From Actinomycetes bacterium (lineage in GTDB: Bacteria; Actinomycetota; Acidimicrobiia; Acidimicrobiales; Palsa-688), in the NCBI GenBank assembly GCA_021809105.1, contig JAKBAM010000002.1, positions 124,001 to 188,000 of the forward strand: a DNA stretch of 64,000 bases, written 5' to 3'. A model generated the notes under the pieces. The model saw only the letters and a list, made by a program, of their open reading frames with translations, made no database searches and had not been told where the DNA came from. Of the stretch, positions 19,298 to 61,863 are shown in pieces; position 1 is the stretch's first letter, and the number at the start of each line of letters is the position of its first letter. The position numbers were made by a program, and so were the translations under genes.

Positions 19298-20428
19298 ATG
19301 ATCACCCAGACCGAAAACGAGCTGATGACCCGAGTCGAGGGCGACGCGCCCATGGGCCAGCTCATGCAGAACCACTACTGGATCCCCTTCGCGCTGTCGT
19401 CTCATTTGCTGAACGAGCGGGCTCCGATGCCGGTCCGACTGTTCGGCGGCGACTTCGTTGCCCTCCGGGGCGAGGACGGCCGGGTGAGATTCCTCGACGA
19501 GACTTGCCGTCATCGAGGCGGAGCGGTCGCCCACTTCCCCGTACACGAGGCGGGTGGCCTGTCATGGGTGTGGCAAGGCGGCGGTGAGGCCCCCCCGTTC
19601 CCGGACCTGCCTTTCGATGGTACGGACCTGTACCAATTCTGGTGTGTGTGCCAGGTGCCCTGCAACTGGCTGCAAGGGGTCGAGGGCACGATCGACTCTG
19701 CCCATGTCGGCGTGCTGCACCAGACGTGGATTGCTGAGGCGGCCAAGATGGCGGAGCACTCAAACCTCGGGCTCGCTCTGGTGCAGCCACCCACCTACGA
19801 GACCGAAGCCACCTCGTATGGCATGCGCGCCGCTGCGCTTCGCAAGACAGCGGATGGAGGCGCGTACGTGCGGATCACCGAGCATTTGATGCCTTTGGTG
19901 ACGGTGGTGCCGATCGGGCGCGCCATGCCTAGATCGGGTTCGGTGTTTGCCATATCACCGACGGATGACACCCACCACCACCTCTTCTTCGGGACCTTCG
20001 GGGACACGCCCCACAGTGCCGAGCCGCCGGAGCGGACTGCGATGCAAGATCCGCGATACGTCCCAGAGGACCTGGACTACACGGGACTGCGGGGAGATCG
20101 GTCCAACGCCTGGGGCCAGGACCGGGGTCGCATGGGCCGCGGTCATTTCTCGGGCTTTTGGCGGAGCCTGCTGGAGGAAGACGCCGTAGTCCAAACGAGC
20201 ATGGGTCCGATCGTCGATCGGACCAGGGAGAACCTCTCCTCTGGAGATGTAGCAGTGGTCCAGGCTCGACGCCTCTTGCTCGAAGCCCTGGACGCCGCAG
20301 GGTCCGGGCGCCTGCCGCCCGGGAGCGCGCTGTCTCACGATGACGTCAAGCTCCCCAATGCGTCCGAGGTCTTCATTGGAGACGGGGAGCGTTGGGAGGA
20401 CGCAGCGATCAATCCACTGGCAAGCTGA
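19298..20428 (+). CDS. phthalate/vanillate-type Rieske oxygenase with half of the Rieske motif missing
   Basis: The 376-aa protein aligns with oxygenase subunits of the phthalate 4,5-dioxygenase/VanA type: MGQLMQNHYWIPFALSS at the N-terminus, then VRLFGGDFVALRGEDGRVRFLDETCRHRGG. The mononuclear-iron motif NWLQGVEGTIDSAHVGVLH gives Asp 133, His 136 and His 141. After Cys 70 and His 72 the text jumps to FPVHEAGGLSWVWQGGGEAPPFPDLPF. The stretch with the second Cys-x-x-His pair is absent. It is an in-frame loss of about 40-45 residues, so a normal [2Fe-2S] Rieske centre cannot form. The gene is otherwise full and open. Confidence 0.8.
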   Translation: MITQTENELMTRVEGDAPMGQLMQNHYWIPFALSSHLLNERAPMPVRLFGGDFVALRGEDGRVRFLDETCRHRGGAVAHFPVHEAGGLSWVWQGGGEAPPFPDLPFDGTDLYQFWCVCQVPCNWLQGVEGTIDSAHVGVLHQTWIAEAAKMAEHSNLGLALVQPPTYETEATSYGMRAAALRKTADGGAYVRITEHLMPLVTVVPIGRAMPRSGSVFAISPTDDTHHHLFFGTFGDTPHSAEPPERTAMQDPRYVPEDLDYTGLRGDRSNAWGQDRGRMGRGHFSGFWRSLLEEDAVVQTSMGPIVDRTRENLSSGDVAVVQARRLLLEALDAAGSGRLPPGSALSHDDVKLPNASEVFIGDGERWEDAAINPLAS

Positions 20429-21015: not shown

Positions 21016-21908
21016 CGGGGCGGGCGAGGCCGCACGACGACCTCCTGCATGACGCTGGCGGCGAGGTGACCCTCGAGATCGTGGATCGCGCCACTGGCGA
21101 GCCCGCGCTCGCCGACAAGGGCCACGGCCTCCTGCGTGTGGAGGTGCCAGCGGTCGAAGCGCACGGGACGATGGAACCAGATGGCGTGATCGCAGCTGAA
21201 GCCGTTCGCGTTGCGTGGCCCCAGCTCGAGCGGATGGGCTCGGAAGATCATGTCCATCAGGAAGAAGTCGCTGGCATAGGCCAGGAGCGCTGCGTGGAGC
21301 ACGTCGTCGCTGCCGACGGGACGGGGGAGCCGCATCCAGTGCGAGCGGGCGGCGCCGGCGTGGCCTCCACCGAGGAAGGCCGGTGCCTCCGGGATGCGCA
21401 TCTCCAGCGCAGGTGGCCGCTCGATCCAGTGACGGCCCCGCGCTCGCAGCTCCGGCGGCAGCTCGTTGGCCCAGGTCTGAAGTAGCGGGACCTCGGCCGG
21501 CGGCGAGACCTCTGGGGGTGGGCCGGTGACATCCGGCTCCCCGCTGTTGTCATGGAACGAGACGACGCCGATGAGCAGTCTTGCGTCCTCCTGGAGCACC
21601 GACACCTGACGAGTCACCATCGAGCGGCCGTCTCGGATGCGGTCGACGACCACCTCCAGCGGTCTACCCGGCTCTCCGGGTCTCAGGAAGTTCGCATGGA
21701 GCGATTGAGGACCTTTGCCCTCAACAGTCGCAGCGGCGCCCACCAGGGCCTGCGCCAGTAGGGAGCCGCCGTAGATCCGGTCGAACATCAAGGTGGTCTC
21801 GGCTGGAACCGCGAACCGGTCGCCACCGAGTGGACGCAGCTCGAGCGATGCGAGTAAGTCGTCGAGCGATGCAAGGATCCCGGAGCGGAGAGCACTGTCG
21901 ACGCCCAT
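21012..21908 (-). CDS. acyl-CoA thioesterase II (TesB-like)
   Basis: Two hot-dog domains in tandem identify a TesB-type thioesterase of about 298 aa. The first has FDRIYGGSLLAQALVGAAATV and SLHANFLRPGEPGRPLEVVVDRIRDGRSMVTRQVSVLQ. The second has LAYASDFFLMDMIF, SCDHAIWFHRPVRFDRWHLHTQEA and GLASGAIHDLEGHLAASVMQE. It releases free acid and CoA from acyl-CoA esters. ATG 21908 is chosen because it precedes the conserved LDDLLASLEL; the frame stays open further upstream but crosses the marR operator. The start is not certain. Confidence 0.83.
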   Translation of the reverse strand: MGVDSALRSGILASLDDLLASLELRPLGGDRFAVPAETTLMFDRIYGGSLLAQALVGAAATVEGKGPQSLHANFLRPGEPGRPLEVVVDRIRDGRSMVTRQVSVLQEDARLLIGVVSFHDNSGEPDVTGPPPEVSPPAEVPLLQTWANELPPELRARGRHWIERPPALEMRIPEAPAFLGGGHAGAARSHWMRLPRPVGSDDVLHAALLAYASDFFLMDMIFRAHPLELGPRNANGFSCDHAIWFHRPVRFDRWHLHTQEAVALVGERGLASGAIHDLEGHLAASVMQEVVVRPRPPR

Positions 21909-21983
21909 GGCCACACGGCCATCATGCAGCATGCACGCCACGGGATCCAAGACCGTGATGCGCGGATGCGCCTCGAGGTGGGG

Positions 21984-21989
21984 TAATAT
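21984..21989 (+). promoter_or_regulatory. candidate -10 box for marR
   Basis: TAATAT is a good -10 hexamer and overlaps the left end of the palindrome. No clear -35 is visible. Repressor binding to the palindrome would block this promoter. Confidence 0.45.
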
Positions 21990-22022
21990 GCAGAGGTTCC
22001 TCATCATGAGGAACCTCTGCAT
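21988..22022. promoter_or_regulatory. 35-bp perfect palindrome, probable MarR operator
   Basis: The left arm ATGCAGAGGTTCCTCAT is repeated exactly on the other strand after a single central C (17 + 1 + 17 bases). It lies 18 bases before the MarR gene and overlaps a -10-like box. MarR regulators bind such palindromes in their own promoters, so autorepression is the simplest reading. As RNA it would also form a strong hairpin just before the ribosome site. Confidence 0.75.
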
Positions 22023-22040
22023 GTTGAGGAGAGAGGGTAT

Positions 22041-22499
22041 TTGGTGGTGACCCAAGATGCGTCGGCGCTCGAGGTTGGGCAGGCTTACTTCGAGTTGCAC
22101 CACCAGTTGCACCGGCTGGTAGATCAAACGATGTCGTCTGCCGGGTTGTCCCTGGCGCGGGCCAAGGTGTTGATGCGCCTCAATGAACGCGGCCCGATGA
22201 ACCAGGCCACGCTGGCGGGACTGCTCGGATTCGCGCCGCGCTCGATCACCGATACCGTCGATGCACTGGAGCGCGACGGAATGGTCATCCGCAGCGAGGA
22301 CAAATGCGACCGGCGGGCGCGGATCGTCGCGCTGACGCCGGCCGGGCACGAGGCTTTTGCCGCGGCTCAGATCACGAAGCTCGAAGCGATGGATCGGATC
22401 TTCGGGTGCTTGTCCGCTCGTGAGCGCGGCACCTTTGTTTCGCTTCTCAACAGGATCCGCACGAACTTACCGTCAGGAGACAGCACCTGTGGCGACTAA
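22041..22499 (+). CDS. MarR-family transcriptional regulator
   Basis: This is a winged-helix MarR protein of about 150 aa. A helical dimer segment (ALEVGQAYFELHHQLHRLVDQTMSSAGLSLARAKVLMRL) is followed by the HTH MNQATLAGLLGFAPRSITDTVDALERDGMVIR and the wing DKCDRRARIVALTPAGHEAF, with the typical Asp-Arg-Arg. Starts TTG 22041, GTG 22044 and GTG 22047 all follow GGAGAGAGGG. Its stop overlaps the MFS gene by 11 bases. It most likely represses itself and the efflux pump and responds to an exported toxic compound. Confidence 0.9.
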   Translation: MVVTQDASALEVGQAYFELHHQLHRLVDQTMSSAGLSLARAKVLMRLNERGPMNQATLAGLLGFAPRSITDTVDALERDGMVIRSEDKCDRRARIVALTPAGHEAFAAAQITKLEAMDRIFGCLSARERGTFVSLLNRIRTNLPSGDSTCGD

Positions 22500-23982
22500 C
22501 GCACTCACTCGACCGCAGCCGGCACCGGCGAAATCCGATCACCGCTGGCTCGTGCTCGTCGTCGTCTCGGTTGCCCAGCTGATGGTCGTGCTCGACGCGA
22601 CCGTCGTCAACATCGCACTACCGTCGGCGCAGGCAGACCTCGGCTTCGACAACAGCCAGCGGCAATGGATTGTCACCGCGTACGCGTTGGCGTTTGGGAG
22701 CCTGTTGCTGCTCGGGGGCCGTGTCGGCGATATCGTCGGCCGCAAGCGGACTTTTCTGATCGCGCTCGTGGCTTTTGCAGGGGCGTCGGCCCTCGGTGGC
22801 GCGTCGCCGTCCTTCGGGGTGCTGGTCATTGCCCGGACCCTGCAGGGCGCAGCCGGGGCGATGCTCGCGCCCGCCGCGCTCGGCACGCTTGTGACGACCT
22901 TCCAAGACCCGCGAGATCGCGGCAAGGCCTTCGGGGTCTTCGGCACCGTCGCGGTCGCCGGCGGTGCGGTCGGGCTCATCCTTGGTGGCATCCTCACGCA
23001 ATACCTGTCGTGGCGCTGGTGCATGTACGTCAACGTGCTGTTCGCCGCGGCCGCCGTTTTCGGTGCGCTGGTCTACATGAGCGAGACAAAGCCGGCCGTG
23101 CGGCCCCGCATCGACGTGGGAGGCACCGTACTCGCCGCATTGGGACTGTTCGGCCTGGTTTTCGGCTTCGCGCAGGCCGAGAGCCACGGCTGGAGCTCGA
23201 GTGTTACGACGACGTCGCTGGCCCTGGGCGTGGCGTTGCTGGTGGCATTCGTCCGAGTCGAGCAGCGAGTACGCCAACCGCTGCTTCCCCTGCGGGTGGT
23301 GTCCGACCGTTCACGGGGCATGGCCTTCGCTGCGGTGGGCATCGCGGGCGTGGCGATGTTCGGCCTGTTCCTGTTCCTCACCTATTACCTGCAGCTGGTG
23401 AAGCACTTCAGTCCGGTCCTCTCTGGACTGGCCTTCTTGCCGATGATCGGCAGCATCATGATCAGCTCGAACACGTCGAACATCGTCACGCTCCCGAGGT
23501 TCGGGCCGCGCGCCGTGATCACCACGGGGATGTTGACGGGTTTCGTCGGGCTGGGATACCTCAGCCGGATCACCGTCCACTCGTCCTATGCCGGCGGGGT
23601 GCTGCCTGCGCTGATCCTCGTGGGACTGGCGATGGGCATGGTGATGGCGCCGTCTATGAACACCGCTACCGCCGGCGTGCAGCCGCAGGATTCGGGTGTC
23701 GCCGCCGCCCTCGTCAGCACCATGCAGCAGGTTGGAGGCTCGATCGGCACTGCTGTGATGAGCACGATCGCCGCGTCCGCGACGACCTCCTACACCGCGG
23801 CGCACGCGCCCGTCTCGGGCCTCGCTGCGGCCGCCGCCACGCACGGGTACGCCGCTGTGTTCCTCGGTTCCTGTGTCGTCTTTGCCGTCGGCGGAGCGCT
23901 AGCCGCCGTGCTGTTCCCGTCGAAGGAGCGGCTAGCGGCGATGCGCGAATCGGTCATACCTGCCGCTGCGGTCCAGGGCTGA
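22489..23982 (+). CDS. MFS transporter, DHA2 (14-helix) drug efflux type
   Basis: The 497-aa membrane protein starts at GTG 22489 after CAGGAGA. It shows motif D1 (VVLDATVVNIALPSAQADLGF), motif A (GGRVGDIVGRKRTFL), LARxxQGxxGA-like text (ARTLQGAAGAMLAPAALG) and about 14 hydrophobic segments, as in the EmrB/QacA group. It would export hydrophobic or cationic compounds using the proton gradient. The MarR gene overlaps its start, which gives a classic repressor-pump operon. Confidence 0.9.
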   Translation: MATNALTRPQPAPAKSDHRWLVLVVVSVAQLMVVLDATVVNIALPSAQADLGFDNSQRQWIVTAYALAFGSLLLLGGRVGDIVGRKRTFLIALVAFAGASALGGASPSFGVLVIARTLQGAAGAMLAPAALGTLVTTFQDPRDRGKAFGVFGTVAVAGGAVGLILGGILTQYLSWRWCMYVNVLFAAAAVFGALVYMSETKPAVRPRIDVGGTVLAALGLFGLVFGFAQAESHGWSSSVTTTSLALGVALLVAFVRVEQRVRQPLLPLRVVSDRSRGMAFAAVGIAGVAMFGLFLFLTYYLQLVKHFSPVLSGLAFLPMIGSIMISSNTSNIVTLPRFGPRAVITTGMLTGFVGLGYLSRITVHSSYAGGVLPALILVGLAMGMVMAPSMNTATAGVQPQDSGVAAALVSTMQQVGGSIGTAVMSTIAASATTSYTAAHAPVSGLAAAAATHGYAAVFLGSCVVFAVGGALAAVLFPSKERLAAMRESVIPAAAVQG

Positions 23983-25457: not shown

Positions 25458-25787
25458 GTGGCCCAAATACTGAAGATCACTCTCACTGACGACCTCACCG
25501 GAGGCGACGCTGACGAGACCGTGGTGTTCGGACTCGACGGCAGAACCTACGAGATCGACCTCTCCGAGAAGAACGCGTCGGCGCTCCGCAAAGCGCTCGA
25601 GAGGTACGTGGCTGCCGGGCGGACCAGCGCAGCTACCCGCCCGGGACGTCGGGGCGGCGCGTCGAGCCACAAATCCGGAGCCGTAGATCCCAAGGCCGTG
25701 CGCGCTTGGGCCAACGATCAGGGCATAGCGGTGTCCGCTCGGGGCCGGATCCCCTCGGTGATCCTCGAGAAGTACCTCAGCCGCTGA
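25458..25787 (+). CDS. lsr2: Lsr2 nucleoid-associated protein
   Basis: The 109-aa protein has the two Lsr2 domains. The N-terminal dimerisation sheet is QILKITLTDDLTGGDADETVVFGLDGRTYEIDLSEKNASALRKALERYV. The C-terminal DNA-binding part is DPKAVRAWANDQGIAVSARGRIPSVILEKY. The AT-hook-like core reads ARGRIP, with Arg-Gly-Arg intact. Lsr2 bridges AT-rich DNA and silences foreign genes, and is confined to Actinobacteria. The start is GTG 25458 after TGGAGGA. Confidence 0.95.
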   Translation: MAQILKITLTDDLTGGDADETVVFGLDGRTYEIDLSEKNASALRKALERYVAAGRTSAATRPGRRGGASSHKSGAVDPKAVRAWANDQGIAVSARGRIPSVILEKYLSR

Positions 25788-26214: not shown

Positions 26215-27498
26215 ATGGCCCGATATCCCAAGCCAGCCGAAGGCAGCTGGACCGAGCACTATCCCGAGCTCGGTACCGGTCCCCTCTCCAGCGAGGACTC
26301 GATCTCGCCGGAGTTCTACGAACTCGAGCGCGAGGCGATCTTCAAGAGGGCCTGGCTGAATGTGGGGCGGGTCGAAGAGCTACCCCGCAAAGGCAGCTTC
26401 TTCACCAAGGAGCTGGTGGCTGCCGGGACCTCCGTCATAATCGTGCGTGACATGAAGGGCGAGATCCGCGCGTTCCACAACATATGCCGCCATCGTGGCA
26501 ACAAGCTGGTTTGGAAAGACTTCCCGGGAGAAGAGACACGAGGAAGCTGCCGTCAGTTCGTCTGCAAGTACCACATGTGGAGCTACGACCTCGACGGCGC
26601 GCTCAACACCGTGCCGCAGGAAGAAGAGTTCTTCGATCTCGATAAGGCGATTATGGGCCTCCTCCCGGTGCACTGCGACGTCTGGGCCGGTTTCATCTTC
26701 GTCAACGTAGCGACCGAGCCGAGTCAGACGCTGACGGAGTACCTAGGACCGATGGTGCTCGCCCTGAGCGACTACCCCTTCCACGAGCAAAGTGATCGCT
26801 ACGCCTTCAGGGCGACTGTCGGGTCGAACTGGAAGCTGTTCATGGACGCCTTTCAAGAGTTCTATCACGCACCTTATCTGCATGGTGGACAGACTCCGAC
26901 CAAGTTCACGAATATGATCCGACAGTTTGGCTTCGAGGCCCCTTTCTACAAACTAGAAGGGCCGCATAGGGTCGTGTCGACCGGGGGTGTCCGCGGCGAG
27001 GATCAGCCCGAAGACATGATCAAGCCGATCGAACGGAAGCTCCGCAGCGGACTGTTCGGTCCATGGGATCATGCCGACCTCAGTATCGAAAACGAGCAGG
27101 ATATCGCGGGTGTCAACCCGAGCGGCGCAAATCCCTGGGGTCTTGACTCCTACCAGGTATGGCCGAACTTCGTCATCTTGATCTGGGCCGGAGGGTGGTA
27201 CCTCACCTACCACTACTGGCCTACCTCTGCGAACAGTCACGTGTTCGAGTCGAGCCTGTACTTCGTGCCGCCGAAGAACGCCTCGGAGAGACTGGCTCAA
27301 GAGCTTGCCCTGGTCAGCTTCAAGGAGTACGGCCTGCAAGATGCCAACACCCTCGAGGCCACGCAAAAGATGCTCGAGACGCGAGTGATGAGTGAGTACG
27401 TCCTCAATGACCAGGAAGTCCTCTGTCGCCATCTCCACAAGGAAGTGGCCAACGCCGTAGAGGAATACAAGAAGGAAACGCAAGGAGCGATCGTCTGA
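26215..27498 (+). CDS. aromatic ring-hydroxylating (Rieske) oxygenase alpha subunit
   Basis: This is an intact 427-aa Rieske oxygenase. The cluster ligands are Cys 91 and His 93 in CRHRGNK and Cys 117 and His 120 in CKYHMW. The spacing between the pairs is longer than usual because of an insert (DFPGEETRGSCRQF). The iron site is NWKLFMDAFQEFYHAPYLH with His 218 and His 223. It should hydroxylate or demethylate an organic substrate, fed by a ferredoxin and reductase encoded elsewhere. The next gene starts on its stop codon. Confidence 0.9.
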   Translation: MARYPKPAEGSWTEHYPELGTGPLSSEDSISPEFYELEREAIFKRAWLNVGRVEELPRKGSFFTKELVAAGTSVIIVRDMKGEIRAFHNICRHRGNKLVWKDFPGEETRGSCRQFVCKYHMWSYDLDGALNTVPQEEEFFDLDKAIMGLLPVHCDVWAGFIFVNVATEPSQTLTEYLGPMVLALSDYPFHEQSDRYAFRATVGSNWKLFMDAFQEFYHAPYLHGGQTPTKFTNMIRQFGFEAPFYKLEGPHRVVSTGGVRGEDQPEDMIKPIERKLRSGLFGPWDHADLSIENEQDIAGVNPSGANPWGLDSYQVWPNFVILIWAGGWYLTYHYWPTSANSHVFESSLYFVPPKNASERLAQELALVSFKEYGLQDANTLEATQKMLETRVMSEYVLNDQEVLCRHLHKEVANAVEEYKKETQGAIV

Positions 27499-39920: not shown

Positions 39921-41102
39921 ATGCGCAGGCAACTGGACGTAAACGTGATGGACCCGAGCGTGGTCGAGGACCCGTTCCCGTTCTACGAGGAGGTTCGGTC
40001 GACTGGTCGCGTCGTGTGGAACAGCAGCCTGGGAGGCTGGATGGTTCCGGGCTTCGACGACTGCTCGACCGTGCTGACCGATCACGGCGCGCACTTCGCC
40101 GCAGTACCGACGAACCCTGAGGTGCTGCCGTGGTTCGAGGCTCCGACCATGATCTCAGTAGACGGCTCCACTCACCGGCGGCTTCGGGGCTGCCTCTCGC
40201 CCCTTTTCACCCGGAGTTCCGTGGCGAGGTGGGAGCAGCGGGTCCGCGTCGTGGTTGACAAGTTGTTGGAGCCTCTCCTCGACGGTCATGAAAGCTTCGA
40301 CCTCATCGCAGACTTCACGATGATCCCGACGGTCATCGTCGCCGAGATGCTCGGCGTCCCCGCCGAGCGTCACGGTGACTTCCGGCGCTGGTCCAACACC
40401 ATCGTGAGCAACCTGTCGTGGGGTCACGAAGACGCGTCGGCTCGTGCCACCTTGCTGCGGGCCGCGACCGACCTGAACATCTACCTTCGCGAGGAGATCC
40501 AGAGGCACCGTCGTGACCGCCCCGACGACTTGCTCACCGCCATGGTTCAGATGGCGGAGGCCGGGGAGATGGACGAAGAGGAGGTGCGGGCCGCAGCGGT
40601 CCTCCTGTTGATCGCCGGTTACGACACGACGGCCAAGGTTCTGTCGAACACCCTCGTCGCACTGGAACGCCACCCGGACCAACGTCGGGTCGTGGTCGAC
40701 GACCCGACGTTGGTGCCGGCCGCGATAGAAGAGGTACTCCGCTGGTGCGGCACCGTCCAGGCCGTCCCTCGCGTCGCAACCAACGACGTGTCCCTCGGGG
40801 GGTCCGACCTGGCTGCGGGCGATATGGTCTATGCCTTCGTCGCAGCGGCGGGCCGGGACCCGGCTCGCTGGTCGGATCCGGCTCGCTTGGATGTCAAGCG
40901 TGAGGCGAAAGCCAACTACGGCTTCGGATGGGGTCCGCACCTGTGCCTCGGTGCTCCGCTCGCACGCCTGGAGTCGGCTGTCGCCATCGAGCAGCTGCTC
41001 CTCCGGGCTCCTGAATACCGACTGCACGACATCGAGCTGGGACCGTCCTTTTTCGTGCGCGGCCCCGAACGTGGGCTACTCGACGCCCGGGCGCGGGCCT
41101 GA
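39921..41102 (+). CDS. cytochrome P450
   Basis: The 393-aa protein has the P450 signatures: I-helix AGYDTT near residue 236, ExxR in IEEVLRW and the haem-binding loop FGWGPHLCLGAPLAR with the ligand Cys near residue 341. It is soluble, as bacterial P450s are, and needs a ferredoxin and reductase from elsewhere. It is a close paralogue of the P450 at 43398 (shared DPFPFYEEVRxxGRVVWN-like start, FDLIADFTMIPTVI, RPDDLLTA). It likely hydroxylates an alicyclic or branched intermediate. Confidence 0.95.
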   Translation: MRRQLDVNVMDPSVVEDPFPFYEEVRSTGRVVWNSSLGGWMVPGFDDCSTVLTDHGAHFAAVPTNPEVLPWFEAPTMISVDGSTHRRLRGCLSPLFTRSSVARWEQRVRVVVDKLLEPLLDGHESFDLIADFTMIPTVIVAEMLGVPAERHGDFRRWSNTIVSNLSWGHEDASARATLLRAATDLNIYLREEIQRHRRDRPDDLLTAMVQMAEAGEMDEEEVRAAAVLLLIAGYDTTAKVLSNTLVALERHPDQRRVVVDDPTLVPAAIEEVLRWCGTVQAVPRVATNDVSLGGSDLAAGDMVYAFVAAAGRDPARWSDPARLDVKREAKANYGFGWGPHLCLGAPLARLESAVAIEQLLLRAPEYRLHDIELGPSFFVRGPERGLLDARARA

Positions 41103-59602: not shown

Positions 59603-61863
59603 CTCCGCTTCGGGGCCCTCTGGAGGGGGTCGCCGTGGTGGAGGTGTCGGCAGGCGTGCCGATGGTCGGGGGTGGGATGGCCGCCTGCCTGCCCGGCGCC
59701 CTCCTCCGGGACCTCGGGGCCGACGTGGTGAGGGTCGAGAGCGGTGCGCCGTCGACGCTCGACTACGGCGTCAAGTTCGGCCGGGTCTGGAACCGGGGCA
59801 AGCACACCATCAGTGCGGCGGAAGGCGATCTGGCGGCCGTGGTGAACAACCGGGTTGCCGACGCCGACGTCGTGTTCCTAAGCGGCGCCGAAGCAGCCAT
59901 CGAGCAACGCGGCATCGGGACCCGCCAGCTGGGGCGGAAGAACCCTCGGCTCGTAGCAGTGCGAGTCCGACCCAGCTACAACGCCGGCGGGGCCATGCCC
60001 GACCTGGAGCTGCTCGTAGCCGCCCGTGCCGGCCTCATGACCCAGATCCGGGGTCACGAGTCGGGGCGGCCGGTCTTCCCCGATCTGGCGGTCGGCCAGG
60101 CCGGCGCGGCCGTCTCGGCAGCGGTCGCCGCCCTCGTCGGGCTCTACGAGCGGGCAGCTACGGGCTCGGGGCGCTGGGCGGAGACGTCGCTCTACGACGG
60201 GATGATGGCCACCCTCCCGATGATCATCGGGAGGGTGGAGAACCATTCCCCCTCCACCCGGCTCCTGTGGCAACAACAGGGCCCGGCGGAGTCCATCTGC
60301 TACCGCTGCGCCGACGGCCGCTACGTGCAGCTGTGGTTCGGCGCGAAGGGAGCGTACGAGCAGTTCCTGGAAAAGATCGGCGATGCGCCCACTGAGGTGG
60401 GTTACAACGCCGAGCTGATCAGCGGCCGGATGGTGGAGCGCGGACGGAGGTGGTCCGAGCTGTTCTCCACCGAGGGCCGCGACTGGTGGGTGGAGGAGCT
60501 GGCCGGTCACAGCTTCCGCTGCGAGCCGGTACTCCGCCCCGGCGAAGCGCTGCGCGATGACCACACGCGCGCTGTCGGCCTGGCCGTGGACTGCGCGGAC
60601 GGGACCGGCCCCCTGACGGTGGTGGGTCCGCCGGTATCGGTCACTGCGGTCGGTACAGCGGCCCTCGAGGCGGGCGCAAACGGCGGTCGGCTCCTGTCCG
60701 GAGTAAAAGTCCTCGACCTGTCCGCTTTCCTCGCCGGGCCTGTGGCTGCGCTGGTCATGGCGGAGCTCGGCGCCGACGTCGTCAAGGTGGAGCCGCTGAC
60801 TGGAGACGTCCACCGCGCAATGGAGCCCATGTTCGCCGCCGGCCAGAGGGGCAAGCGGACTGTGGCGCTCGACCTCAAGTCACCGGGCGCCCCGCTGGTC
60901 CTCCAGCAACTCTTCGAGTGGGCGGATGTGGTCCACCACAACTCCAGGTTGGGGGTGGCCGAACGGCTCGGCTACGACGAGCCGACGGCCAGGGCGGCCA
61001 ATCCCGACCTCGTGTACAGCTTCGCCAGCGGGTTCGGGGAGACGGGCCCCAAGGCGTCGCTGCCCGCCAACGATCAGCTGATCCAGGCGCTCAGCGGCAT
61101 CGAGCACGGGCAGGCGGGGGAGGGGAGACCGCCGTCGTTCCTCGTATGGGGAGCGGTGGACGTGGTTGGCGGTTGGCTGGCCGCCTGCGGGATCCTCGCC
61201 GGCCTCTACGCCCGGCGGGTGGGAAGAGGGGGCCAGTCGGTGCGCAGCTCCCTCTACGGGGCCGGCCTCACCCTCAAGTCCGGGGCGCATCTGGACGGAG
61301 GAAGCCTGGAGGCGGGCCCGTCGATCGACGACCGCCAGATGGGCTACGGAGTCGCCTATCGCATCTACCGGGGCGGCGACGATCGGTGGTTCGCACTGGC
61401 CATTGGCTCCGAGCACGAGTGGCGCGCCCTGCGAGAGGTCACCGGTGCCGAGATTCCCGCCGCCCCGCCGCCTCTGCGGACGGCGGGATCCGAGCCGCAG
61501 CCCGAGGAGCTGGTGCTGGAGGCCGTCTTCGCCGGTCGTCCAGCCGCCCAATGGATCGCCGTGCTGGCCGATGCCGGCCTGGCGGTGGAGGCGGTGGTCG
61601 AAGTCGACCGGGAGGGTTTCGTCGCCGGCTTCGTCGACGATCCGGTCAACCGCCAGCTCAACAGGGTCGTCACCTATCAGTGGGGAGCCCGCGGGAAGGT
61701 CGATCAGCTTTGCTTTCCGCCCCGCCTGCCGTCGGCGGAGCGATCCGCGGCGGCTCACATAGCCGGCCTTGGTCAGCACACCGCCGAGGTGCTGGCTGAA
61801 GCCGGCATAGGGGCCGAGCAGCAGGCCGAGTTGGCAGCCGGGGGCACCCTGTCGCCGACCTGA
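59599..61863 (+). CDS. double-length CaiB/BaiF family CoA-transferase
   Basis: TTG 59599 overlaps the amidohydrolase stop (TTGA) and gives 754 aa. Unit 1 begins LEGVAVVEVSAGVPMVGGGMAACLPGALLRDLGADVVRVES. Unit 2, from about residue 370, begins VKVLDLSAFLAGPVAALVMAELGADVVKVEPLTGDVHRAM. Both keep an Asp at the catalytic position (PDLAVGQAG and AVDVVGGWLAACG). It is a paralogue of the protein at 48686, with the same two-unit layout, and is likewise coupled to the preceding gene. It should exchange CoA between organic acids. Confidence 0.88.
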   Translation: MTPLRGPLEGVAVVEVSAGVPMVGGGMAACLPGALLRDLGADVVRVESGAPSTLDYGVKFGRVWNRGKHTISAAEGDLAAVVNNRVADADVVFLSGAEAAIEQRGIGTRQLGRKNPRLVAVRVRPSYNAGGAMPDLELLVAARAGLMTQIRGHESGRPVFPDLAVGQAGAAVSAAVAALVGLYERAATGSGRWAETSLYDGMMATLPMIIGRVENHSPSTRLLWQQQGPAESICYRCADGRYVQLWFGAKGAYEQFLEKIGDAPTEVGYNAELISGRMVERGRRWSELFSTEGRDWWVEELAGHSFRCEPVLRPGEALRDDHTRAVGLAVDCADGTGPLTVVGPPVSVTAVGTAALEAGANGGRLLSGVKVLDLSAFLAGPVAALVMAELGADVVKVEPLTGDVHRAMEPMFAAGQRGKRTVALDLKSPGAPLVLQQLFEWADVVHHNSRLGVAERLGYDEPTARAANPDLVYSFASGFGETGPKASLPANDQLIQALSGIEHGQAGEGRPPSFLVWGAVDVVGGWLAACGILAGLYARRVGRGGQSVRSSLYGAGLTLKSGAHLDGGSLEAGPSIDDRQMGYGVAYRIYRGGDDRWFALAIGSEHEWRALREVTGAEIPAAPPPLRTAGSEPQPEELVLEAVFAGRPAAQWIAVLADAGLAVEAVVEVDREGFVAGFVDDPVNRQLNRVVTYQWGARGKVDQLCFPPRLPSAERSAAAHIAGLGQHTAEVLAEAGIGAEQQAELAAGGTLSPT

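Follow-up and report, generated by a model that had tools for sequence, protein, structure and literature searches.

A perfect 35-bp palindrome upstream of a marR-MFS efflux operon is probably a twin operator for the MarR repressor of the operon

Introduction

The MarR-family protein Rv2887 of M. tuberculosis binds a 30-bp DNA duplex as two dimers, which lie on nearly opposite faces of the helix and take up 15 bp each (PMC5526998). A palindrome (CGATCG) is present only in the part of this DNA that belongs to one of the dimers, and the authors propose indirect readout (PMC5526998). In S. aureus, two dimers of the TetR-family repressor QacR bind the IR1 element, which follows directly on the qacA promoter and covers the start site (PMC3617543, PMC6018408). 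An actinobacterial example is CouR of R. jostii RHA1. This MarR repressor recognizes an inverted repeat whose halves, cATTGA/TCAATg, are separated by 5 bp and which overlaps the -35 region, and its ligand is p-coumaroyl-CoA (PMC4737184).

Here we describe a palindrome located upstream of a marR-MFS operon in a 64,000-nucleotide stretch of bacterial DNA, hereafter called the window. The locus resembles the Rv2887 system in that a MarR protein is involved and in that the 15 bp taken up by each Rv2887 dimer matches the 15-bp spacing between the centres of two dyads in the window. However, both of these dyads are near-perfect, the whole forms a perfect palindrome, and the associated genes constitute an efflux operon. 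The QacR-IR1 locus and that of the window share a large inverted repeat that accompanies an MFS efflux gene, is downstream of a promoter (predicted in the window) and overlaps the likely start, and we consider this arrangement to be the closest functional parallel, by analogy only. In that system qacR is divergent and QacR is a TetR protein. In the window, the operon opens with marR, and the product of this gene is a MarR protein, which places it outside the TetR-family repressors that act on IR1-type sites. CouR is an actinobacterial MarR repressor whose dimer binds an inverted repeat at a promoter, as is predicted for the protein examined here. The 5-bp spacer and the overlap with the -35 region distinguish the CouR site.

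Results

The palindrome and its genomic context

The palindrome (ATGCAGAGGTTCCTCAT-C-ATGAGGAACCTCTGCAT; Table 1) has arms that are exact reverse complements, and it can be extended to 20-nucleotide arms at 95% (21985-22025). No other inverted repeat of the window with a gap of 8 or less has so long a perfect arm, and the longest arms in 60 dinucleotide shuffles measured 8-13. Two other long repeats were observed in apparent coding DNA. One is an inverted repeat at 40678-40714 with 16-base perfect arms and a 5-base gap, located in a frame that resembles a cytochrome P450 gene (AGYDTT motif), and the other is a 30-bp perfect palindrome at 60209-60238 with 15-base arms and no gap. In all, perfect arms of at least 15 bases occur three times in the 64-kb window, and none of the 60 shuffles contains one longer than 13. 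Because the two additional repeats sit in apparent coding DNA, the length of a palindrome is not by itself proof of function. Rather, it is conservation that argues for a function of the palindrome upstream of marR.

Table 1. Positions in the window of the palindrome, its dyads and the neighbouring features of the marR-MFS operon
Feature	Position	Strand	Description
-10-like hexamer TAATAT	21984..21989	+	Overlaps the left end of the palindrome; L002 and L003 have TAnnAT at an equal offset from GAGG
Perfect 35-bp palindrome	21988..22022	.	17-base arms; central C at 22005
Operator dyad A1 (candidate)	21992..22003	.	AGAGGTTCCTCA; centre 21997.5; putative site of the first MarR dimer
Central dyad B	21999..22011	.	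CCTCATCATGAGG; inner halves of A1 and A2
Operator dyad A2 (candidate)	22007..22018	.	TGAGGAACCTCT; centre 22012.5; putative site of the second MarR dimer
Shine-Dalgarno-like purine run	22026..22037	+	GAGGAGAGAGGG
marR-type repressor gene	22044..22499	+	PF01047, 45.2 bits (cut-off 24.6); recognition helix begins APRSIT
DHA2-type MFS efflux gene	22489..23982	+	TIGR00711, 247.8 bits (cut-off 230.2); PF07690

The protein encoded by the first gene has a winged-helix domain that exceeds the curated cut-off, as does the match of the second protein to the DHA2 family of MFS efflux proteins. The MFS gene begins before marR ends, with an overlap of 11 bp. An AF2 model of the MarR protein (mean pLDDT 80, from three sequences) places the recognition helix at residues 65-77 with APR at its start. 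Foldseek matches of this model include MarR, ST1710, MftR, MexR and CouR. The operator complexes of MftR, ST1710 and MarR (8ylg, 3gfi and 5h3r; E values of 2.5e-8, 3.6e-8 and 2.7e-7) have the same fold as the model; identity is 18-29% among the 50 matches listed. A thioesterase gene is divergent from marR on the minus strand and starts at about 21911. An Lsr2-type nucleoid protein gene (25458-25787) lies a little downstream of two MFS genes, and genes of the LigXa-C/Rieske-like and ring-hydroxylating oxygenase types (19298-20428 and 26215-27498) flank the operon on both sides, which suggests a neighbourhood of aromatic degradation.

The -10-like hexamer is located three bases ahead of the first GAGG. 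Neither a -35 element nor a terminator-like site was found in 21800-22200, and the number of promoter-like sites in this interval was zero; the missing -35 element counts against the operator reading. The transcript likely starts at about 21995-21997, which is within dyad A1 and about 7 bases after the -10-like hexamer. GTG at 22044 is the preferred marR start over TTG at 22041, in that it aligns with the GTG of the L002 homologue introduced below.

The source genome (3.65 Mb in 118 contigs, 92% complete) contains no second copy of the 25-bp core of the palindrome with up to three mismatches allowed, and a degenerate form (GAGGnnCCTCAnnnTGAGGnnCCTC) is present at one other place with two mismatches and at four with three. 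With a single-copy core and a rare degenerate form, a widespread repeat or regulon can be ruled out for this genome. Single TGAGGnnCCTCA sites are barely enriched there (128, versus 112 for the reversed pattern, with up to one mismatch), and therefore the short site alone carries little specificity, which counts against the operator reading. In a sample of 396 genomes from the phylum, the double element (up to one mismatch) occurs in the genome of origin and in six others, each with one mismatch, and the reversed-pattern control matched 11 genomes.

What the initial annotation had observed at this locus was confirmed, and its interpretation is supported in part. The exact 17-base arms around one central base, the position in front of a MarR-MFS operon and the overlap with TAATAT are all present, with TAnnAT conserved at the same distance in both orthologues that are 68% identical, and the comparisons described below connect the palindrome with the MarR protein. 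It had also called for a search for the palindrome elsewhere in the genome and had raised the prospect of a widespread repeat unrelated to regulators; uniqueness of the core excludes such a repeat in the source genome. Its distance of 18 bases to the start is correct for TTG 22041 but becomes 21 bases for the favoured GTG.

Two dyads conserved in syntenic operons

Comparison with relatives resolves the palindrome into two 12-bp dyads with the form (T/A)GAGGnnCCTC(A/T). GAGGnnCCTC occurs twice, at 21993 and 22008, and the centres of the dyads are separated by 15 bp, or about 1.4 helical turns. Because each dyad is nearly symmetric, the pair reads as one large palindrome.

A pattern-seeded search of a GTDB-based collection recovered three MarR relatives, L002, L003 and L004. 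In L002 (a MAG labelled Acidobacteriota) and L003 (a Jatrophihabitans MAG), the MarR protein is 68% identical to that of the window, and the MFS protein is 80% and 81% identical, respectively. The L004 protein is 34% identical and its gene lacks such a site. When five proteins from the window were searched for in L002 and L003, matches were obtained for MarR and the first MFS protein only; the thioesterase, the second MFS protein and Lsr2 had none within 3 kb on each side of the match. The typed flanking genes also differ, with PemK-type and AAA/DUF4143 genes in L002 and a GAF-ANTAR gene in L003. The operon on the Acidobacteriota-labelled contig is close to those of the window and the Jatrophihabitans MAG, which could reflect horizontal transfer or a mis-binned contig.

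Both dyads are kept in L002 and L003. The three leaders share TAnnAT-nnn-GAGGTnCCTCAnnnTGAGGnn(C/T)CTC, and their outer GAGG and CTC are invariant. The L002 site has one imperfect half-site. L003 carries one and the same dyad in two direct copies (TGAGGTGCCTCA in both places), and therefore perfect symmetry is not kept, although the outer flanks ATAA/TTAT still pair.

A fourth operon, L055, encodes a more distant MarR protein (38-39% identical) ahead of an orthologous MFS gene whose product is 62% identical to that of the window. Its leader carries TAAGGTGCCTAATGGTAAGGGTCCTTA, which comprises two dyads of the form TAAGGnnCCT(T/A)A with centres exactly 15 bp apart. Thus, paired sites at the spacing of the Rv2887 type are present in the window, L002, L003 and L055. 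In L055, AAGG replaces the GAGG half-site and the helix TPASVT replaces APRSIT. No other single line of evidence speaks as strongly as this joint change of protein and site for a site that the MarR protein would read as two dyads. The -10 sequence of L055 lacks its TA, which counts against the operator reading.

A search for further MarR-MFS operons, based on the MFS protein, yielded 30 loci, with a recognisable MarR gene within the retrieved stretch in L126 only; L055 and L126 are the same place. Viral contigs gave no MarR or MFS relative, and a search of plasmids returned 105 records, all under 60% identity, of which seven among the 30 listed were analysed.

Association between the recognition helix and the half-site

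A wider set of loci was assembled by similarity to the MarR protein. Seventy-one of its 72 members could be oriented (L018 had no match), and together with the window they were reduced at 85% identity to 60 non-redundant loci. An upstream GAGG-n2/3-CCTC element is present in 19 of the 31 loci with a PR[ST]xT helix versus two of the 29 without (Fisher p 8.7e-6, to be taken as indicative because the helix pattern was chosen during the analysis and the loci are related). Both exceptions have the helix AARSVT. Shuffled sequences predict 0-0.07 such elements per locus. Counting against the association, 12 PR[ST]xT loci lack the exact element; three of these have APR (L049, L050 and L072), and in the other nine PR is preceded by V or Q.

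The single-copy equivalent of dyad A1, TGAGGTACCTCA, is found in the Streptomyces plasmid homologues L046-L048 and L051. Counting non-redundant homologues, six have one copy, comprising L046 and L048 together with L053, L054, L101 and L102 from genus g233, and two further loci of this genus (L099 and L100) have it twice, at distances of 37 and 28 bp. TGAGGGCCCTCA accompanies the central dyad in another Streptomyces plasmid homologue (L052) and in L104. Upstream of the main site, the leader of L060 has a second, degenerate GAGGTACCCCAACTATGAG copy, as though the tandem had been extended.

Among 14 loci of family f142 that have a -PRTMT helix, the left dyad is present as GAGG-n3-CCTC (3-bp spacer) in every case. 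A TGAGG that follows forms the central CCTCAnnnTGAGG at nine of them, and the full right dyad is absent, which counts against the twin-dyad reading. In the window, L002, L003 and L104, CCTC and the GAGG that follows it are 5 bp apart, and the same gap is the best matched in eight f142 loci (mean 2.88 of 4 letters).

Tandem geometry among homologues

To compare spacing independently of the half-site letters, we used a letter-free score with a cut-off of 17 of 20 on 40 non-redundant loci that lack both exact GAGG-n2-CCTC and CCTCAnnnTGAGG. L006, which carries GAGG-n3-CCTC, is among them. A geometry with a 3-bp gap between two dyads reached the cut-off in 16 of the 40 loci. The remaining gaps between 0 and 20 gave 0-6 loci each, and 150 shuffled sets gave a mean of 2.3 (maximum 7); these statistics are indicative, since the loci are related and the cut-off was chosen during the analysis. 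Chance may explain several of the 16, such as L024, L034, L071 and L076, which are GC-rich. Seven of the 13 loci with a PR[ST]xT helix and nine of the 27 without it have this geometry, and therefore the helix pattern alone is no marker of the branch. None of the other 19 MarR-like matches in the source genome has it (three are under the curated cut-off, and their starts were placed crudely). This suggests that the geometry is a trait of this branch in particular, as opposed to one shared by MarR proteins in general.

The suggested pairings between helix and half-site are APR with TGAGG, TPAS with TAAGG, and VPR with TGAGn. VPR-type homologues (L008, L009, L012 and L017) display tandem dyads of the form TGAG...CTCA-nnn-...CTCA with the same 3-bp gap, and their leaders possibly represent a second half-site class. 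We tentatively propose that the branch could use a four-half-site operator for two dimers with the fixed geometry 5-2/3-5-3-5-2/3-5, wherein the half-site letters drift with the helix. The window is the most symmetric case among the loci compared.

Alternative explanations

The palindrome might instead be a single long operator, with one MarR dimer on the central dyad and the outer halves extending its contacts. This arrangement could account for the presence of CCTCAnnnTGAGG in nine of the 60 non-redundant loci (window counted), which in f142 is not accompanied by a complete right-hand dyad, and for the two loci, L052 and L104, that combine one full dyad with the central one. However, the invariance of the outer GAGG and CTC in the window, L002 and L003 makes it unlikely, as do four (L046, L047, L048 and L051) of the five Streptomyces plasmid homologues analysed, in which the TGAGGnnCCTCA dyad occurs without a central dyad. 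The f142 loci point in the same direction, as the left-hand element is universal among them and the right TGAGG is absent in five of 14. The initial annotation viewed the site as an unusually long and exact MarR operator. The palindrome itself stands, but it is better described as two ordinary 12-bp MarR-type dyads at a 15-bp spacing.

A function mainly as a leader RNA hairpin, acting through stability, attenuation or translation control, is very improbable. The full 35-mer does fold strongly (-27.6 kcal/mol, z -7.8), as does its L003 counterpart (-24.9, z -7.3), but the hairpin is lost in L002 (-11.5, z -1.2) and L055 (-8.4, z -0.9), where the DNA dyads are kept. Moreover, 8 of the 17 bases in the 5ˊ arm would be missing from a transcript that begins at 21996, and RNAs folded from the predicted start give z values of -1.15 for the window, -2.2 for L003 (mild) and -0.5 for L002. 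The region has no terminator-like site, as stated above, and no Rfam match reached the gathering threshold in the window. An RNA role is unsupported because the hairpin is weak in L002 and L055 and the predicted transcript of the window folds without unusual stability. The RNA-level contribution put forward in the initial annotation is therefore not sustained, with a strong hairpin in the window and L003 only and about half of the 5ˊ arm untranscribed from the putative promoter. A cis-acting RNA element was likewise rejected, as only two of the four syntenic operons exhibit a strong fold and structure is not conserved. The location of the palindrome in a divergent intergenic region would also permit a site for another regulator, or control of the thioesterase gene. 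There is scant likelihood of this, because MarR and MFS genes are retained in L002 and L003 where no thioesterase relative was found within 3 kb on each side, and because the site tracks the MarR recognition helix.

Discussion

Our analyses indicate that the palindrome is probably the operator for the MarR repressor that the operon itself encodes, composed of two adjacent 12-bp dyads for two dimers. Each dyad would be a complete site for one MarR dimer, and the 15-bp spacing of their centres would place two dimers next to each other, with the DNA approached from roughly opposite faces. Because the two dyads are located directly downstream of the -10-like hexamer and cover the likely transcription start, the bound repressor would prevent transcription of marR and the MFS gene from being initiated. 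Release of the repressor would presumably be brought about by a ligand that, to judge from the operon, is probably one of the pump's substrates.

For the organism, this is most likely an ordinary self-regulated efflux operon, and the kind of switch appears to be essentially known. What is new is the candidate operator itself, the correlation between helix and half-site, and the tandem geometry proposed across the branch. No description of this half-site, and no joint occurrence of GAGGTACCTC and the MarR family, was found in the searchable open-access literature, outside of which most subscription papers lie. In a paper on CrtR, TGAGG and CCTCA strings are located in a primer table.

An eye-catching palindrome is thereby converted into a specific operator hypothesis and the beginnings of a protein-DNA code. 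The pairing of helix type with half-site may offer a route to sequence-based target prediction for this MarR branch, and at an MFS efflux gene the locus would parallel the QacR-IR1 arrangement, with a MarR protein in place of the TetR repressor.
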